NCBI GenBank assembly: GCA_963281155.1
Contig: CAUJLY010000004.1
Coordinates: 2,356,001-2,420,000 of the forward strand
Length of the DNA stretch: 64,000 nt
Source of the DNA: Rhabditophanes sp. KR3021
Lineage: Eukaryota > Nematoda > Chromadorea > Rhabditida > Alloionematidae
Direction: 5' to 3'
The notes under the pieces are model-generated. The model did no database searches, was not told where the DNA came from, and saw only the letters and a program-made list of their open reading frames with translations. A program made the translations under genes and the position numbers. Positions 3,001 through 64,000 of the stretch are shown in pieces. The number at the start of each line of letters is the position of its first letter. Position 1 is the stretch's first letter.

Positions 3001-6000
3001 AAAGAAGGAGATATAATCGAAATAGGAAATCATGATGAATTAATGAAGAACAAGGGTTATTACCACAGCTTAATTTTAGCTCAACAAACGCAAGAAAGAA
3101 ATGTTGATAATGGTTGTGATGAGAAAAGTCTGGCCTCAACCAAAACCGAATATAACGAGAGATCCATTGATGGGGCAATTGAAGAAAGTGAGGAAGACGA
3201 TGCTCAAATCAGCAGGGAAAGGCTTAGCAAACGTTTAGGGCGTTCTATGGTTAGTGTTAAATCAATTGATGACGAGGAAGATGAAAATGTCAGAGATTCT
3301 ATGCACGATATTGGAGCTTCAGAAGCAACTATTATGGATATTATTAAATTTGGGAAACGTGATTTTAAAATTGCAGCTTTTGGACTTATTTTTGTAATTG
3401 GAAGAGGTTTGACTTGGCCTGTATTCTCTATTATTTATGGTAATTTATTCAAAACATTATCTAATCCAGATAATAGTGAAGATGCAAATAAACTTTCAAT
3501 TATCTTTATTTGCTCAGCATTCGCTGTGCTAGGAATCTGCTCGATGATATTCACGATTGCAGCAGGAACAATGTTTGGCATTTCTGGAGAAAGAATGACA
3601 AAACGTTTAAGAGTTGCTGTATATAAAAATATTCTCTCCCAAGATGCTTCGTATTTTGATTCTGGAAAGCATTCTGTATCAACTTTGTCAAATAGATTGG
3701 CTAGTGACGCGCCAAATGTCCAGGCAGCGATTGATATGAGATTAGCTGAAGTTTTGCAAGGTACGTCAATCATCTCATCTAATTATATCTTCATTTTAGG
3801 TAAACTAATGGACCATTAAAAAAGTTAGCGAATACCATAATATTCATTTAAAGAGGGGGAAAATAGTGTAATTAGGCAAGATAGTATTAAGCAATATACT
3901 TTGAAGATTGATGGATTTTGATAAGAGTAATATCTGAAATTCGGCTTATAATATCTGGACCTTTCTTCCACATAACGTCATCAGGTTGTCTTGATACATC
4001 GATCTTTTTCAAACTATTTTAAAGGTCCAGTATAAACGGTTACTCCAAAGCAATAGCTTCATTACTAGTCAACTCATCAAGGTATAAATCTGCTATTTTG
4101 GATATATTAATGATTCAGGTCCCTTTGGTATTGAGAGGAATGAATCTTCCGTAATAAAGTTTGACATCTAATGAATGTTCACAAAGTCTCTTTGCCATAT
4201 TGTTGGAAACCCCCCAATAAAAACTGAATTATTAAAATAACAAGGATTTAGCATCTTTATCAGCAGGCAAGACATCCAAGACGTATGTAGATTGTTGTCC
4301 AGTTGCTGTATTTTGAGACTTAGCCTTCTTCAGATTATCCATTAACTTCTTCCAAAACTCAACATCAAACAAGTTCTTGTCTATTCCAAAAACCTCGATA
4401 ACTACACTTCTAAACTAACTTACAATAATAGAGACTTCTTTAGCATTGACTCTTCTTTAATATCCTTAATTACCAACAGATATTCTTCGTGGAAAGCCAG
4501 CTCAGGAGGTTCCATAGTAGAACTCTTAACAGGGCTTGACTCAGTACTTCCACGTCTAGCAACATTGATGATTATATTTGATATTTGTCAACTTGCCATC
4601 TGTATCAACTTCTTGCCTTATTGTTTCGCTTTATCTTAACGGAGTGCTTCCAATAGAATTGCTTATCTTTGAGGGGCTCCATCGCGATTGGTATCTTTAT
4701 TTGGACAAGATATTTTAATTATTAAATCGAGGAAGGTATAAAAGAATTAGCTAATTTAAAGATCGAGTCGAAAGGCTCTGATAATGACTTTAAAAAAAGA
4801 TTTAATTGAAACTTATTTTCTAAAAACATACAAATTATTTCGTTATACTAATGCATAATTGTAAATAGGAGTTGTTTCCCTTATCGCTGGATTAATAATA
4901 TCGTTTGTTTACGGATGGAGAATGGCTTTTGTAGGAATAGGCACAGCTTTAACTCTTCTCGTTGTCAATGTATCTACCTCTAATTTATTAAAACGACGCG
5001 CCATGGAAGATAGCCATACAGCGGAACGTGCTTCACAAATTGCCTTGGAATCAATTGAAAATGTTAAAACGATTCAGGACATGACTTTCCATGATGATGT
5101 CATGCATATGTTTCACAAAGCATCGGAAGAGCCAATGCGAAGAGCCATCATCAGAGGCTACTTACAAGCTTTTTCATATTCTTTTTCCCTAGCCTTCGTT
5201 TCCTTCAATTTCGCAGTGTCTTATTCGATCGGAACTATTTTAATTGTTAATAATTATGTTACTCCATACGTTGTTTTTCAAGTTATTGAAGCCTTAAATA
5301 TGGCATCAATGTCATTAATGAATGCGGCATCTTATTTCCCGGAATATGTGCGTGCTCGTTGTTCTGCTGGACTACTTTTCAAAATGATTAGTGAAAAATC
5401 AAGTATTGATAACTTTGGAAAAGGAGGGAATACCAAGAAGATACACGGAAATATTCAGATTGAGTCTGCTCATTTTGCTTATCCACATATGCCACGACAA
5501 AAAGTACTTAAAAATTTATCCATTAATGTAGATTTTGGACAAACATTGGCTCTTTGTGGTCCATCTGGAAGCGGGAAATCAACTACAATTCAGTTACTAG
5601 AAAGGTATTATGATTTATCAGTTGGGGAAGTACTAATTGACAATATCAATATCAAACATTATAATGTAAATCACTTAAGAAAAGCAATTTCAATTGTCTC
5701 CCAGCAGCCTATTTTATTCAATCTTACAGTCAAGCAAAATATTTGCTACGGATCTTGTGGAATGTCAGATGATGAAGTTGTTGAAGCTGCAAGAAACGCC
5801 AACATTGCCGATTTTATTGAGACTCTCCCTCAAAAATACAATACTTATATTGGTCCCAGAGGACGTAATCTTAGTCTAGGACAAGCTCAGCGTTTATCCA
5901 TTGCCAGAGCTATTATCAGACAACCTCGAATCTTATTACTTGATGAACCATCGGCAAGTTTGGATGCTGCCTCAGAAAAAGTAGTACAGGAAGCATTAGA

Positions 6001-6210: not shown

Positions 6211-6318
6211 ACGACTTATTCATAAATAAAATTTGAAACGCCTTATTCATAAATAAAATCTGAAACTTTTTGTTCATAAATAAAATCTAAAACGTTTTAT
6301 TCATAAATAAAATCTAAA
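6211..6318. repeat. 27-bp tandem repeat, four copies, each with AATAAA
   Basis: Four near-identical 27-bp units start at 6211, 6238, 6265 and 6292. Each contains TTCATAAATAAAAT. They fill the 178-nt gap between the stop of the ABC gene (+) and the stop of the convergent BTB gene (-). Each unit carries an AATAAA polyadenylation hexamer on the + strand. Confidence 0.9.
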
Positions 6319-12006: not shown

Positions 12007-13345
12007 ATGACTACAGGAGTAAGTTTAAAATAATAGAAACAGCATTTATATTGATATTTAGAAGCTTTACGGACAAAAGGATTCTTTCCGCACCAAGAAA
12101 GTCTTGGTTGTCGCTAAATACGCTGGAGTTGAATTGGAACTTATTAATGAAATTCCACAAGAAAAATTCCCACTCGGAATCGTAAGTTAACTAAATTTTA
12201 TAATATTTAATAATGACCTCAATTAGTCACCAGCTTATGAATCAGGTGAAACAACTTTGTTCGGATCAGATGCTATCGCCCTCCACATCGCCGCTCAAAC
12301 TTTCCCAGGAGTTGCATGCTCTGCCGTCTGCCAATGGCTCCAATATTCTGAAGGAAAACTTGTTCAAACCATGTTGAACTACGTTCTTCCATCTGTCTCT
12401 GCCGCCAAACTTGACGCCGGAATCGTTGCTGCTGCCAAGACCGAATTCCATTCTTTGCTATCAGCTTTGGACAAAGTCCTTCTCACCAAAACCTTTTTGG
12501 CCGGAGAACGCATCTCTCTTGCTGATATCTCTGTCGCTTTAACTTTATTGCCAGCTTTTGAGCATGTCCTCGACGCTGGGGCCCAAGCAAAGTTCCAAAA
12601 CGTCACTAGATTCTTCAAGACAATCGTCAATCAAGACAACGTTAAGGCTGTCTTAGGTGAAGTAAAGTATGCCGCTAAGGAATCTACCTTCTGTGCCGAT
12701 GAATTCGCTAAACTCTCAGTCAAATCCCAAAAGACTGCTGCCAAGGCTGAAGCTAAGGTTGAAAAGACCGAAGCTAAAGTAGAAAAGAAGAAGGAAGTAA
12801 AGAAGGAAGCCAAGAAGGAATCCGAAGTACCTCAACCAATGGAAGAACCAGTAGCTGAGAAGTTCGTTGATCCATTCAGTCTTATGCCACCAGGTACCCT
12901 CGTCATGGACAACTTCAAGAGAGTCTATTCAAATGAAGATACCGCCACAAAAGCTATTCCATGGCTCTGGGAGAACTTTGATGCCGAAAACTATTCAGTT
13001 TGGTACGGAGAATACAAATATCCCGAAGATTTGACTTTGACTTTCATGTCTTGCAACTTGATCAACGGAATGTTCCAGCGCTTGGACAAGATGCGCAAGC
13101 ATGCCTTCGGGTCAGTCTGTCTCTTCGGAACTGACAACGCTTCAACTATCTCAGGAATTTGGATCTGGCGCGGACACGAGCTTGCCTTCCCACTTAGTCG
13201 CGATTGGACTGTCGATTATGAAAGTTATGAGTGGAAGAAACTTGATGTCACCAATGAGGCTGACAAGAAGACTATCAATGAATACCTTCTCTGGGAAGGA
13301 GACTTCGGAGGCAAGAAATTCTCCCAAGGGAAAATCTTTAAGTAA
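12007..13345 (+). CDS. Translation elongation factor 1 gamma (eEF1B-gamma)
   Basis: Exons 12007-12018, 12062-12181 and 12227-13345 give 416 residues, the usual eEF1G length. The N-terminal GST-like fold (about 1-205) is followed by a Lys/Glu/Ala linker and the conserved C-terminal EF1G domain (about 255-416, ending LLWEGDFGGKKFSQGKIFK). It scaffolds the eEF1B guanine-exchange complex that recharges eEF1A. Codons are markedly more C-rich at third positions than in neighbouring genes, as expected for a highly expressed gene. The first coding exon is only four codons; its frame joins cleanly through a 43-nt intron. Confidence 0.96.
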
Positions 13346-59200: not shown

Positions 59201-61042
59201 TCTTACCTCATTCGTTTCAACGTTTGTTGATACAAGTTTGCTGAATCACACCTTTGAACCTGACCATCACATAGGCTATGTCGCGGTGCCAGATCTAGAC
59301 ATTTGTAGCGACGAACAATAGACAAGTCTTTGAGTTTGCCTCTGCACTATTATTCCGCGCTTTGAAACCTCCCAGTCCCTCTAGTCTACATAATCATGAA
59401 TATAGATGTGTTGTATGTTGTCTCATCATCATGACGACAAACCATCTCTATCGATATCAATGCATTTTTACTAACATTTTCCATTTTTTGTAAGGCCATT
59501 CATCTGTCTTCTATAAACATAACAGCCTTTTGAAATATATTGCTTTGTTATCCTACCAGGAGCCGGCTAGTTCAAGTAAGTTTTATTTTTGTAAAAATTA
59601 TGTTGATTAGAAGCATTAGATTGAGTTGGTTTCATCATTGAAAACCGAGTATTTTGGTTAGGTTTATTTGTAGATACAATGCTTGCCAAATCATTGAAAT
59701 CGTGTTCGTTTTTTAAGTATAGGTGACGTACGTAAACGAAAGATCAAAAAGTAGAAAGTTTGTCGGTTGGTAATTTTGCGTTCCTAACTTTTCTAAATCA
59801 TTTGGTTGCAATGCGTTTTATCAGTTAGCTGGTTATTACTGCATTTAATATAAATCGAAATATTTAATTATTAATGTAAGTGCAGTTTTTAGTTATTGAT
59901 GGAGTATTAAAGGCGTGAGGTAAATTGCGTCTTTTAGTAGAATTTTGTAATATATTCATTGAACCGTGTTAACTTGTATTGTGTCTTCATTAAAAATATT
60001 CCTACATTCATAAAATTTTTATAAATATCCTTTTCATTAATGAGAAAGCTTATTGAAGCCATCACTTTAATCATCTTTTGGTGTTGTCTGGTTTCTTCAT
60101 CTAAAAGGAAGAATTAGCGACCATCGCTTATTACATACATTTGCGACAAGATGCCACGTATCGACAAAGAGAGATCTTCTCAACAAAAGTTAGAATGCTT
60201 TCTATTTTGAAATGCTAATTTGATGGGCTAGTGTGCGTATGGTCGTTCTAATGTACATGCCGTTTAAGCATTGTCACTTAAATACTCTTTAAACCATTTT
60301 CTTCATACATTCGTAATAACTTCTTTCCATTTATTTATTGACTTTCCTCCCAACAAGAGTTGCTGTTTTTTAAGAACAGTTATCTTTTCCCATAGCATTC
60401 AGTTTGAATAGTTTGTATAGGTTGTAGATGTAGGTTTTGATTAATTGATTTACCAAAAAATAGTATATTCTTTTACACATACAGACATCAATTTTACCTT
60501 CGAGTCGTTTATTCCACTAATCTGTTTAACACAAAGCGTTGGCTACTTTGATTTTGCATTAACAATCAATACCGCTGTCGATATTGCAGGCTGCTGAAGC
60601 ATTTTTGTCTAACTGAATGTGTAGTATCAAAGTTATATACATATCGAAAATGATGGTGCCTGTAAAGAGTAAATGGCGCGTATTTAAAACATATCGGTTT
60701 GTCACATTTTACTCCACACTTCCGCTAATAACAATTCCATTTTTGTGTGCGCGGCTATATCTGGACGCGTCCTATCTAACTCATGAGCGGCAATCTATCT
60801 ACAGATATAGAACGTCATTTATATGATCTTAGCCCTTTTTTGTTATTAAAAAGCTAGAAGTGTATATACTATTATTTTTACACCATTTTTATGTAGTCAC
60901 AAGGGGTGTGTGTGAGTAGGCTGATGTTATAATATATTTTGTATACATATAATAGATAGGGTTGAATCTTCTTTCTTTTCTTTTTGTTTTATTCATTTCA
61001 CTATTATCTTTAGTTTAGGTGTACATCTTTCATTCAGATGAT
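56226..61042. other. Gene-poor region upstream of hairpin cluster
   Basis: About 4.8 kb without a supportable protein gene. It contains a 12-bp perfect palindrome (57216-57227, CCTATGCATAGG), a short stem GGTGTAAA/TTTACACC near 59055-59083, and a lone TTTGCGAC at 60140 without a good hairpin. The promoter of the hairpin-bearing transcript may lie here. Confidence 0.45.
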
Positions 61043-61128
61043 TGTGCCTTGTCCATAGTGCTTCGTTTGTCGAAAACTCGAGAATACATACCGATTTGCG
61101 ACCATAGAATCACTAAGGGCAAGGTGTA
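61043..61128 (+). ncRNA. microRNA-like hairpin 1 (TTTGCGAC family)
   Basis: The 5' arm GCCTTGTCCATAGTG pairs with the 3' arm CACTAAGGGCAAGG with one mismatch and one G-U pair. The stem continues through TTTGTCGAAAA against TTTGCGAC, and the loop is about 17 nt. The predicted mature 3p strand starts TTTGCGACC at 61095. Confidence 0.8.
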
Positions 61129-61221
61129 TATCTATGAATTGAAATATCTATCACAAAACAACCAAGCTTCCTACTATTTATCTTACATTACATTCTAAAT
61201 ATTTATACGAATTGTTAATAG

Positions 61222-61309
61222 TGCTACTAGTCCATCGGGCCTGGGCAAATCCAAAACAGTTGCTTTGTACCGTTTTGCGACTGCTGCCAGGCTCAAAGGA
61301 CTAGTAGTA
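61222..61309 (+). ncRNA. microRNA-like hairpin 2 (TTTGCGAC family)
   Basis: CTACTAGTCC and GGACTAGTAG are perfectly complementary at the base. GGGCCTGG then pairs with CCAGGCTC (one G-U), and CCAAAAC with GTTTTGCG. The loop is about 12 nt. The predicted 3p mature strand starts TTTGCGACTG at 61274. Confidence 0.85.
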
Positions 61310-61344
61310 TCTTTTACATTTGAATGTATCGTATAATCCTTACA

Positions 61345-61429
61345 TAGGTGCTGGGCTTCGAAGGAATGATGGGCCCAAATAATGTTTGAGATATTTGCGA
61401 CCTATTCACTTCTTAAAAGCTCAGTGCTT
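61345..61429 (+). ncRNA. microRNA-like hairpin 3 (TTTGCGAC family)
   Basis: The arm GGTGCTGGGCTTCGAAGGAA pairs with TTCTTAAAAGCTCAGTGCTT using several G-U pairs, and the upper stem GGGCCCAAAT pairs with ATTTGCGACC. The loop is about 12 nt. The 3p mature strand starts TTTGCGACC at 61394. Confidence 0.82.
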
Positions 61430-61459
61430 AAATGGATATTATCTAGTAAGTTGAAATAA

Positions 61460-61547
61460 ATGTATTAGTCACATGAAGTAGGGGAGTTTGTCAAATGAAG
61501 ATTAGGTTAATTTGCGATCTATCCTTATTTCAAGGGGCTAATACATC
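61460..61547 (+). ncRNA. microRNA-like hairpin 4 (variant TTTGCGAT)
   Basis: TGTATTAG and CTAATACA are perfectly paired at the base; the middle stem has mismatches; the upper stem TTTGTCAAAT pairs with ATTTGCGAT. The loop is about 13 nt. The 3p strand starts TTTGCGATC at 61511, one base different from the family octamer. Confidence 0.75.
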
Positions 61548-61570
61548 GTTATATTCTATTAACTCGATAA

Positions 61571-61659
61571 TATGCTTTACTTTCCGAAACCGAATGTTCA
61601 CAAAAAAATGAAACTAATGGCTTTTTTGCGACCAATCCGATTCCGAAAAGTTCAATGTA
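61571..61659 (+). ncRNA. microRNA-like hairpin 5 (TTTGCGAC family)
   Basis: The arm ACTTTCCGAAACCGAAT pairs with ATCCGATTCCGAAAAGT over almost its whole length, with A-C mismatches and G-U pairs. The upper stem TTCACAAAAAA pairs with TTTTTTGCGA. The loop is about 13 nt. The 3p strand starts TTTGCGACC at 61625. Confidence 0.82.
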
Positions 61660-61685
61660 TTACGAACTACTTTATTCATCATAAG

Positions 61686-61770
61686 ACATGTTTGACTTCA
61701 AGACTTGGAATGGCAACAAAATATGGTCTGATTATATTTGCGACCTTTCCAAGTGTCGAAGTCAAATGTG
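61686..61770 (+). ncRNA. microRNA-like hairpin 6 (TTTGCGAC family)
   Basis: TTTGACTTCAAGACTTGGAA pairs with TTCCAAGTGTCGAAGTCAAA with only two to three mismatches, one of the most complete stems in the cluster. The upper part pairs ACAAAATAT with ATATTTGCG. The 3p strand starts TTTGCGACC at 61737. Confidence 0.87.
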
Positions 61771-61780
61771 ATCTAACATC

Positions 61781-61833
61781 ATATTTAATTTATATTTAAT
61801 TTATACTTAATTTATATTCAATTTATATTCAAC
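61781..61833. repeat. 11-bp AT-rich tandem repeat between hairpins
   Basis: About five imperfect copies of an 11-bp unit (TTTATATTTAA and variants TTTATACTTAA, TTTATATTCAA) lie between hairpins 6 and 7. Confidence 0.75.
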
Positions 61834-61858
61834 TAATACTAAACTAATATCCAACTTA

Positions 61859-61949
61859 CTCAGCCATGTCTGACATTTGCTTTTTGAAATCGTAAATATA
61901 GTATTGATACTTATTTGCGACTTTCTAAAGGCCGAATGTCAGGCATGAG
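61859..61949 (+). ncRNA. microRNA-like hairpin 7 (TTTGCGAC family)
   Basis: CTCAGCCATGTCTGACATT pairs with AATGTCAGGCATGAG with a small bulge. The upper stem TTTTTGAAATCGTAAATAT pairs with TTATTTGCGACTTTCTAAAG. The loop is about 15 nt. The 3p strand starts TTTGCGACTT at 61914. Confidence 0.82.
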
Positions 61950-61976
61950 CATTAACAATTTTTAATTTACACATAA

Positions 61977-62057
61977 TATTGTATTACTCGGTTAATGTGG
62001 AAGCAAAATATTGTTATTTATCATATTTGCGACCTTATTATGCCGAGTAATTAAATG
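61977..62057 (+). ncRNA. microRNA-like hairpin 8 (TTTGCGAC family)
   Basis: ATTACTCGG (61983-61991) and CCGAGTAAT (62043-62051) are perfectly paired. The stem continues TTAATGTGGAAGCAAAATAT against ATATTTGCGACCTTATTATG with mismatches. The 3p strand starts TTTGCGACC at 62026. Confidence 0.8.
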
Positions 62058-62193
62058 TTATACATTACTCACAACTATTTTTCCATATTTCCTTGAACGG
62101 TTAACGAAACTAATATTAATTAAAATTAAATATAGAACTTACTACAAAGATGTAGCTTTAGGCGCAACTTGGAAAAAATAAAATGGATACACC

Positions 62194-62267
62194 TCCTACT
62201 TTACTTTTAAATAGAAATCTGTTTTGCCAATCCCTTTTACCAACCCCTTAAGATATGTAAAGTAGGA
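62194..62267. ncRNA. Possible hairpin with perfect 11-bp base
   Basis: TCCTACTTTAC (62194-62204) and GTAAAGTAGGA (62257-62267) are perfectly complementary, with 52 nt between them. Inner pairing is poor, so it is weaker as a microRNA precursor than its neighbours. It could be chance in AT-rich DNA or a different structural RNA. Confidence 0.3.
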
Positions 62268-62572
62268 TTTAAGGAAAAAAATAATATTTTATTCATTATC
62301 CGCCCCTCGAAATTAGTAAATATATGAGTAGTTAGTTAATGTAAATAAGGCACAAATATTTTTACTATATGTGTGTGCTTTCACTTTTCCTTCTATCCCT
62401 TTTTTGAAAAATGATGTTAAACACAACAGTTTGGATTTAGGTAAACAAAATGAAGAGATTTTTTTGCAAAAGTCCTAGCTGTCGTGTTTGATGTTTAGAA
62501 GATGCCTATCTTGGATGTGTGTACAGTCTATCTTTCTTCACCTTTCATCAATCAACATTACAACAGTGAAAT

Positions 62573-62640
62573 ACTTGAAGAGGATGCTGCACGTACCATA
62601 CGTAATAATTGATATGGCAGTGTATGAATCCTCTCTAAGT
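62573..62640 (+). ncRNA. microRNA-like hairpin of a different family
   Basis: ACTTGAAGAGGATGC pairs with ATCCTCTCTAAGT at the base, and ACGTACCATA with TATGGCAGTG at the top. The stem is about 28 bp with a 12-nt loop. It does not carry the TTTGCGAC octamer. The 3p arm would start TATGGCAGTG near 62613. It lies between hairpins 8 and 9 of the cluster, on the same apparent transcript. Confidence 0.6.
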
Positions 62641-62732
62641 AGATTGCTTGTATCTCAAGCTATTGAATGTACTTATTTTACTTGTTTCTATACTCATTTG
62701 TTATCTCTTTGTGATAGATATTTTTAAAGTTT

Positions 62733-62819
62733 TTGTGTTTGACTAATATGATTAGGTCTGGGACAAAATGAAGTTTTAATTGCCATTTGCGACAGTATCC
62801 TAATCACATTAGTTTTGTG
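62733..62819 (+). ncRNA. microRNA-like hairpin 9 (TTTGCGAC family)
   Basis: ACTAATATGATTAGG pairs with CCTAATCACATTAGT with one mismatch. The outer TTTGTG pairs with the TTTTGTG side through A/G-U contacts, and the upper TGGGACAAAATG pairs with CATTTGCGACAG. The loop is about 15 nt. The 3p strand starts TTTGCGACA at 62786. Confidence 0.83.
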
Positions 62820-63597
62820 CTCGTAGCTTTATATCAATATTAGCTCTGTTTTGACGGAAAAGGATTTATCATATACATACCATGGCGCAGAATAATTAAA
62901 CTCAAATGCATGATGCAGTCTGAAGCAGTAAGAGAATACATGGAGAGGCAGTTGCAATTACGGCTGTGCGGCTTTATATCCATTTTTAATTACTTTTCCT
63001 CATTTTTAATTAAATATTTTAAATAAACTTCATACACCAATTTTTAAATCTCATTTCGCAAGAAGATAATTAAAAAGATTTGGGACGCAGATGTTTTAAA
63101 GGTTGCGTACCTAGTGCGGCTACGTTTCCTAGATTAAAACGGAATTAAGTAAAACGTGGCATAATTAGAAATAGAAGTATGACTCAATTTCAAACTGCGT
63201 GTATATTAATCCCATAATTGCGGAAAGGTAAGCAAGCGTGTGTCGGCAGATTACTAGAAAATTGATTAAGGTTGGCATATGATTGGAAACATAATTTGAG
63301 AATATAATTAGGATATTGGTAACAACTTAAAAGTTGTAAGAGCAGGTGTTTTCAAAAACAGCAGTTTGGATTTCGTTTAAAATCAAGGAGGTTGGATTAA
63401 TCATTTGTATTCCTAAATCATTTGTATTATGAATCGGCTGTTTTTGTTTTGCTACCTTTTGTTTTGAACTCAAATTCCCAATAGATGTATAGATATAATT
63501 CGTATCTGATACCCGAATTGGTATAATTTTAACTAGTATCTTGGTTTTGCCATATAATGCGTAGGATTGTTAAGAGAACCAAAATGGCAATATGTTT

Positions 63598-63662
63598 GAG
63601 TATGCTGTGGGTAGGAGGTTCTAGATTAGCTTAACTGATTCTAGCACCTCATTAGCATGCTC
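63598..63662 (+). ncRNA. microRNA-like hairpin, 3p begins TAGCACC
   Basis: GAGTATGCT pairs with AGCATGCTC (one G-U) at the base, and AGGTTCTAGA with TTCTAGCACCT (one mismatch) near a 13-nt loop, with an internal bulge between. The 3p arm contains TAGCACCTCATTAGCATG (from 63642). Its bases 2-7 (AGCACC) equal those of the miR-29/miR-83/miR-285 group; base 8 differs. Homology to that group is not established. Confidence 0.5.
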
Positions 63663-64000
63663 CGAGCACATATGCACTCAATATATTATAAATAAATTGG
63701 TTAGTGTTGCCGTGCTTTTTATGGAAAATAGAAGCGAACTTGATATTCTTGCTAGGGGTGGCTTCAAGAGGCGTTAATATTTTGGACAAGAAAAATATGC
63801 ACATATTTAGTCTTACTTGCCTCCTTTTTATTATTATTCTGATATCTGTTAAGACCAGTCACACACGTTAATTATTCCTTAGTAGAAGTCTTCTCTCCTA
63901 GTAGCACCAACAACCATGCGCACCACCATAAAACACCACGTACGACATAGCAAGTGTCAGAGACTTTTTGCCATGGTTAGGGCAAATGTTTGTGGCAAAA
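63663..64000. other. Right-end sequence, nothing recognised
   Basis: AT-rich to mixed sequence without supported ORFs or clear hairpins up to the window edge. Confidence 0.4.

Follow-up and report, generated by a model that had tools for sequence, protein, structure and literature searches.

An octamer array in tandem hairpins

Rhabditophanes sp. KR3021, described as a free-living close relative of Strongyloides (PMC10676819), is placed in the Strongyloidoidea, family Alloionematidae, and the assembly tabulated for R. diutinus KR3021 comprises 44.8 Mb in 6 scaffolds (PMC10676810, Table 1). The genome searched here has 44,845,725 bases in 6 contigs; the window, by which we mean the whole stretch of 64,000 nucleotides under analysis, is C4:2356001-2420000. 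The protein encoded at 12227-13345 of the window is the elongation factor 1-gamma of Rhabditophanes sp. KR3021 (372 aa, 100% identity). Nine hairpins, the first at 61032-61139, can be folded from the plus strand of an AT-rich region with few open reading frames. By our own reading of the sequence, a collagen-like coding sequence follows the hairpin stretch on the other strand. The features are listed below, with energies in kcal/mol and the number of shuffled sequences that folded as well.

60140-60147, plus strand: octamer without hairpin, outside the cluster; z 0.0, 140/300 shuffles
61032-61139, plus strand: hairpin 1, 3p candidate from 61095 (UUUGCGACCAUAGAAUCACUAA); -34.5; z -4.07, 0/300
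61213-61318, plus strand: hairpin 2, 3p candidate from 61274; about -44.9 to -46.0; z -6.70, 0/300
61336-61437, plus strand: hairpin 3, 3p candidate from 61394; -35.5; z -3.61, 2/300
61460-61546, plus strand: hairpin 4, 3p candidate from 61511, octamer ending in T (UUUGCGAU); -30.9; z -5.45, 0/300
61564-61665, plus strand: hairpin 5, 3p candidate from 61625; -15.7; z -1.16, 43/300; weak on this strand
61684-61774, plus strand: hairpin 6, 3p candidate from 61737; -36.4; z -6.16, 0/300
61770-61846: 11-bp AT-rich tandem repeat, 5 copies, between hairpins 6 and 7
61863-61950, plus strand: hairpin 7, 3p candidate from 61914; -41.9; z -9.48, 0/300
61973-62061, plus strand: hairpin 8, 3p candidate from 62026; -29.7; z -5.38, 1/300
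62726-62830, plus strand: hairpin 9, 3p candidate from 62786; -24.2; z -1.04 (102 nt), -2.6 and -2.9 when trimmed

The hairpins share the word TTTGCGA(C/T). An earlier note on this DNA had counted ten such octamers, and all ten were recovered within ~2.65 kb of the plus strand (60140-62793). Nine start exactly where the note had placed them (61095, 61274, 61394, 61511, 61625, 61737, 61914, 62026 and 62786), and folding put each of these at the loop-proximal start of a hairpin's 3' arm, as had been claimed. Over both strands the window holds 11 TTTGCGAY words against a shuffle mean of 4.40, a count of at least 11 being reached in 0 of 100 shuffles; 10 of the 11 fall within the 2.65 kb, every one on the plus strand. 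The octamers at 60140 and 34901 are without a hairpin.

When the nine copies are compared in pairs, their mean identity reaches 0.97 over the octamer; over nucleotides 9-22 of the 3' arm it is 0.34, as it is over the 24 nt upstream, and composition alone would give 0.28 between copies. The description of an octamer kept while the arms diverge was therefore accurate (97% versus 34% identity), and this concentration of conservation between paralogues in the seed is a mark of animal microRNAs. The seed UUGCGAC at nucleotides 2-8 is exact in eight of the nine octamers, with a U at nucleotide 8 in the copy at 61511. As to the tandem duplication that had been proposed, the layout fits; we infer duplication rather than demonstrate it, because the arms show, beyond the octamer, scarcely more likeness than composition would give (0.34 versus 0.28). 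When the hairpins were aligned with MAFFT, the 5' arms came out of register, and the alignments were hence not used for covariation.

Near-palindromes in tandem, within an AT-rich region of few open reading frames and with a five-copy 11-bp tandem repeat between hairpins 6 and 7, might also be decayed MITE-like inverted-repeat transposons that retain a conserved core, rather than miRNA genes. Transposon copies, however, share terminal sequence, whereas the arms here are unrelated between copies (0.34 versus 0.28 expected), and the conserved block lies at the putative miRNA 5' end rather than at the palindrome ends. Moreover, in the searches for octamer pairs (gaps 40-180), none of the further loci where exact pairs recur has the cluster form. 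Target-site duplications were not seen, nor, in a non-exhaustive search, were many dispersed copies. We consider a transposon origin hardly credible and treat the array as microRNA hairpins in what follows.

Folding, geometry and strand

Folding was compared with 300 dinucleotide shuffles for each 102-nt window of the plus strand, and with 500 shuffles for trimmed windows. For seven of the nine hairpins, no more than 2 of 300 shuffles folded as well (z -3.6 to -9.5); at 102 nt the count was 43 of 300 for the hairpin at 61625 (z -1.2) and likewise for that at 62786 (z -1.0). Trimming helped the hairpin at 62786, which was then equalled by 8 and 4 of 500 shuffles, and left that at 61625 no better than shuffles on the plus strand (149 and 172 of 500). 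Because both are strong on the minus strand (z -5.6 for 61625 and -5.4 for 62786, each 0/300), all nine beat shuffled sequence on at least one strand. The expectation that the set would fold better than shuffles thus held on the plus strand for seven hairpins, and for 62786 when trimmed, and failed there for 61625.

The usual annotation of an animal microRNA asks that at least 16 of ~22 mature nucleotides pair with the opposite arm and that the loop be 8 nt or longer. In the 102-nt folds of all nine hairpins, nucleotide 1 of the octamer is paired and the loop to its partner measures 14-20 nt. Between 14 and 20 of the 22 nucleotides are paired throughout, with at least 16 in six hairpins and 14-15 in the other three. 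We then defined a geometry test (at least 14 of 22 nucleotides paired upstream, first paired nucleotide no later than 3, loop 10-25), which was passed by 12 of 59 distinct TTTGCGAY sites, namely the nine of the window and three on contig C6, and by 0 of the 47 other sites. Of 2000 positions drawn at random from the window, 99 passed. The 59 sites are those of the loci fetched, rather than a random draw from the 845 exact octamers of the genome, so single members elsewhere may be missed.

The plus strand gives the more stable fold in six of the nine hairpins, in some by 10-16 kcal/mol, and the minus strand in three. The stretches 61564-61665 and 62726-62830, weak on plus and strong on minus, are possible antisense miRNAs. 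Several minus-strand G-U pairs, 8 in 61625 and 3 in 62786, read as A.C on the plus strand, and the pattern at these two members may represent antisense processing or relaxed pairing.

A more general reading would place the action of the hairpins on the minus strand, or on both strands, and make the plus-strand octamer partly a by-product. The minus-strand folds of 61625 and 62786 speak for it, as does the hairpin at 61274, which is about equally stable on either strand (-46.4 kcal/mol on minus versus -44.9 on plus). Against it stand the six better plus-strand folds, and the plus-strand 3p octamer is the sole conserved block and equals the 5' end of a sequenced miRNA as published for two relatives. 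For the array as a whole we judge minus-strand action very improbable; for 61625 taken by itself it is roughly an even call. The plus strand is preferred as the strand of action for the cluster.

Extent of the cluster

Several members of the hairpin cluster are without the octamer, and the cluster runs on beyond the window.

62411-62497, plus strand: hairpin without octamer, TTTGCAAA in the octamer's place at 62463; -31.4; z -6.35, 0/500
62567-62644, plus strand: hairpin without octamer, 3' arm with TGGCAGTGTATGAATCCTCTCT; -25.3; z -4.70, 0/500
63592-63664, plus strand: further pre-miRNA-like hairpin without octamer; -27.6; z -3.76, 2/500
64157-64259, plus strand: hairpin past the window end, beats shuffles
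64299-64392, plus strand: hairpin past the window end, beats shuffles
64480-64577, plus strand: hairpin past the window end, beats shuffles

The hairpin at 62411-62497 is probably a paralogue with a changed seed, and the 3' arm of that at 62567-62644 carries TGGCAGTG, which we take to be a seed of the miR-34 type. The three hairpins past the window end (64157-64577, or 4157-4577 of the fetched locus L023) have TAAGGCAC, the miR-124 seed, in common in their 5' arms. The canonical mir-124, however, is a 3p miRNA, for which C6:2712433 is a separate candidate (48 bits, one bit short of the cut-off).

A scan for strong hairpins (at least 26 bp and -24 kcal/mol) covered 90 kb, made up of the window and a further 26 kb of the contig to which it belongs. 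It gave 36 places on the plus strand, 14 of them within 61.03-64.58 kb; on the minus strand 10 of 50 fell in this same stretch. Since near-palindromes give minus-strand matches too, the scan by itself cannot fix the strand. The earlier note had the octamer stretch right and the cluster too short, as plus-strand hairpins continue to ~64.58 kb. A covariance model built from hairpin 7 alone gave 12 matches in L023 900-5000 with E up to 1; because 5 of the 12 were on the minus strand, we regarded it as too unspecific to enrol members.

The seed in other nematodes

No Rfam family scored above threshold in the window, the best weak match being mir-2566, whose 26.5 bits fall short of the gathering score of 86. 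Clusters of the mir-35 and mir-51 type in C. elegans consist of hairpins with a common seed and a diverged remainder, a layout like that of the Rhabditophanes cluster with different seeds.

The earlier note had put the seed forward as a candidate novel family. However, Strongyloides ratti is reported to have UUGCGAC as its largest miRNA seed family; the family is higher in parasitic females and was suggested to be specific to Strongyloides, in a study whose differentially expressed seed families hold 1 to 21 sequences (Suleiman et al. 2022, PMC9203780). The S. ratti family has the same seed at nucleotides 2-8 and belongs to a sister lineage of nematodes; that study links it to the parasitic female, whereas Rhabditophanes is free-living. 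The seed is also found in Bursaphelenchus xylophilus, where the mature bxy-novel-09 is given as UUUGCGACUGUUUUCAGGCCUUU, with UUUGCGAC as its first eight nucleotides (PMC2953492, Table 4). This miRNA is recorded in five of five libraries at 56.0-704.8 counts per million, has one listed member and was termed species-specific by its authors (PMC2953492). It shares all eight octamer nucleotides with the Rhabditophanes 3p candidates; beyond them at most 8 of 14 positions agree (hairpins 2 and 7; permutation P 0.14). Convergence could thus account for the likeness, since on the published mature sequence the octamer is the whole basis for homology.

A match in M. incognita was set aside, as the precursor has GATTGCGACC at its 5' end and so not at the UUGCGAC seed position, and UUGCGAC is absent from the main text of a paper on S. 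stercoralis (PMC9200769). No earlier report of the Rhabditophanes cluster was found in the literature searched, outside which Holz and Streit 2017 may bear on it. The claim of lineage specificity therefore stands for a group wider than one species and falls for a single species; that of a nematode microRNA family which is clustered and shares UUGCGAC as its 3p seed is well supported. Because the seed occurs in Rhabditophanes and, as tabulated, in B. xylophilus, the family is not confined to the Strongyloides parasites.

Octamers elsewhere in the genome

The three sites on C6 that pass the geometry test form a second, smaller cluster on the minus strand, at 6709678, 6709431 and 6709306. The first two fold better than all 300 shuffles (z -5.5 and -5.1), and the third does not rise above them (130/300). 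One search for octamer pairs returned 14, with 5 in the window, 2 on contig C3, 1 in this cluster (C6:6709299) and 6 elsewhere, and each of these last loci (L009, L010, L011, L014, L021 and L022) failed the geometry test. A search for the loop-type pattern gave 10 places, three of them belonging to the window and one to the C6 cluster; none of the other 6 is a hairpin of the cluster kind.

Exact octamer pairs genome-wide numbered 4, 2, 3 and 6 at gaps of 40-70, 70-100, 120-150 and 150-180, against 1, 0, 0 and 0 for the backward controls. All 15 were located: 12 in an array on C3, 2 in the window and 1 at C6:5229620, which fails the geometry test. Pairs of control 8-mers at gaps 40-70, taken from the target words of let-7 and miR-124, were 0 for let-7 and 0 for miR-124, with 3 in the let-7 backward control.

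An array of candidate target words on C3

At C3:2311940-2312810 (plus strand, 4940-5810 of the fetched 10-kb locus L026), ten exact copies of GTCGCAAA, the perfect 8-mer target of a UUGCGAC seed, lie within 871 nt. Two more at 6258 and 7716 of L026 make 12 in 10 kb, with 0 on the other strand and none in the flanking 10 kb on each side. The shorter word TCGCAAA occurs 15 times in L026, three of them beyond the GTCGCAAA words, and always on the plus strand, against 1.9 expected in 10 kb of both strands. None of the words has pre-miRNA geometry. The locus thus has the sequence features that a natural sponge would show: many seed matches, on one strand, outside miRNA hairpins. One 28-bp plus-strand fold spans the word at L026 4995, TATATAAA is found at 4696, and the open frame at 4773-5117 matches no Pfam family.

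The nucleotide preceding GTCGCAAA is never G (0/10), so pairing with a miRNA that has C at position 9 would end at nucleotide 8. Among 12 family members tested, none showed 3' supplementary pairing at these sites beyond that of shuffles. An array recognised through the seed only would bind every member; therefore a decoy for the family fits better than a decay trigger for one member.

The lack of significant supplementary pairing to the 12 members would suit an array of DNA-binding sites or a decayed minisatellite with no tie to miRNAs. Such an origin sits less easily with the composition of the locus: within its 950 nt no 8-mer recurs as often as the exact target word (ten times; any other word with more than three occurrences overlaps it), all 15 TCGCAAA of the 10 kb are on one strand, and the spacing of the words is irregular. 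In addition, a stem of -3 kcal/mol or better directly follows 6 of the 10 words, compared with 7.9% of local and 11.8% of all plus-strand positions of L026 (binomial 4e-5 and 4e-4). We hold an origin of this kind to be somewhat short of an even chance. A miRNA-binding role for the locus, suggested by the words and their stems, we would place just under even. As a working reading, the locus most likely yields an RNA that would bind many copies of the family at the same time, either acting as their decoy or being strongly repressed by them.

Natural sponges are exemplified by CDR1as/ciRS-7 for miR-7 and by Sry for miR-138. Like them, the C3 locus offers many seed matches for one miRNA family in a short locus; it differs in being a candidate transcript, in its exact 8-mers with small 3' stems, and in belonging to a nematode.

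Discussion

In summary, the array in the window is very probably a genuine miRNA cluster of polycistronic type, which adds Rhabditophanes sp. KR3021 to the hosts of the known UUGCGAC seed family. The hairpin geometry, together with the miRNAs of relatives, suggests that the octamer is the mature 5' end. Transcription, processing and targeting in Rhabditophanes are predictions from these features: a plus-strand primary transcript would be cut into hairpins, the 22-nt 3p strand starting UUUGCGAC would be loaded into Argonaute, and the loaded strand would repress RNAs that carry the 8-mer GUCGCAAA. Since the copies can stand in for one another at the seed and vary freely outside it, having many of them is likely to affect dosage, to provide redundancy or to allow different timing. 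A C3 transcript with ten perfect 8-mers, several of them flanked by stems, could then buffer or time the whole family through the seed alone.

We tentatively suggest, as a rather doubtful scenario, that the free-living ancestor of the Strongyloides clade had both an expanded UUGCGAC family and a dedicated C3 decoy, and that the parasites inherited and redeployed the circuit rather than devising it themselves. Should the C3 array prove to be transcribed and to act as a decoy, a nematode would have a natural sponge directed at an entire seed family.

Looking ahead, Rhabditophanes offers a laboratory-tractable, free-living species for testing the role of the UUGCGAC family. A nine-hairpin cluster in a free-living outgroup indicates that neither the seed family nor its expansion was invented by the parasites, and the free-living host changes the published account of UUGCGAC as a parasite-specific family.
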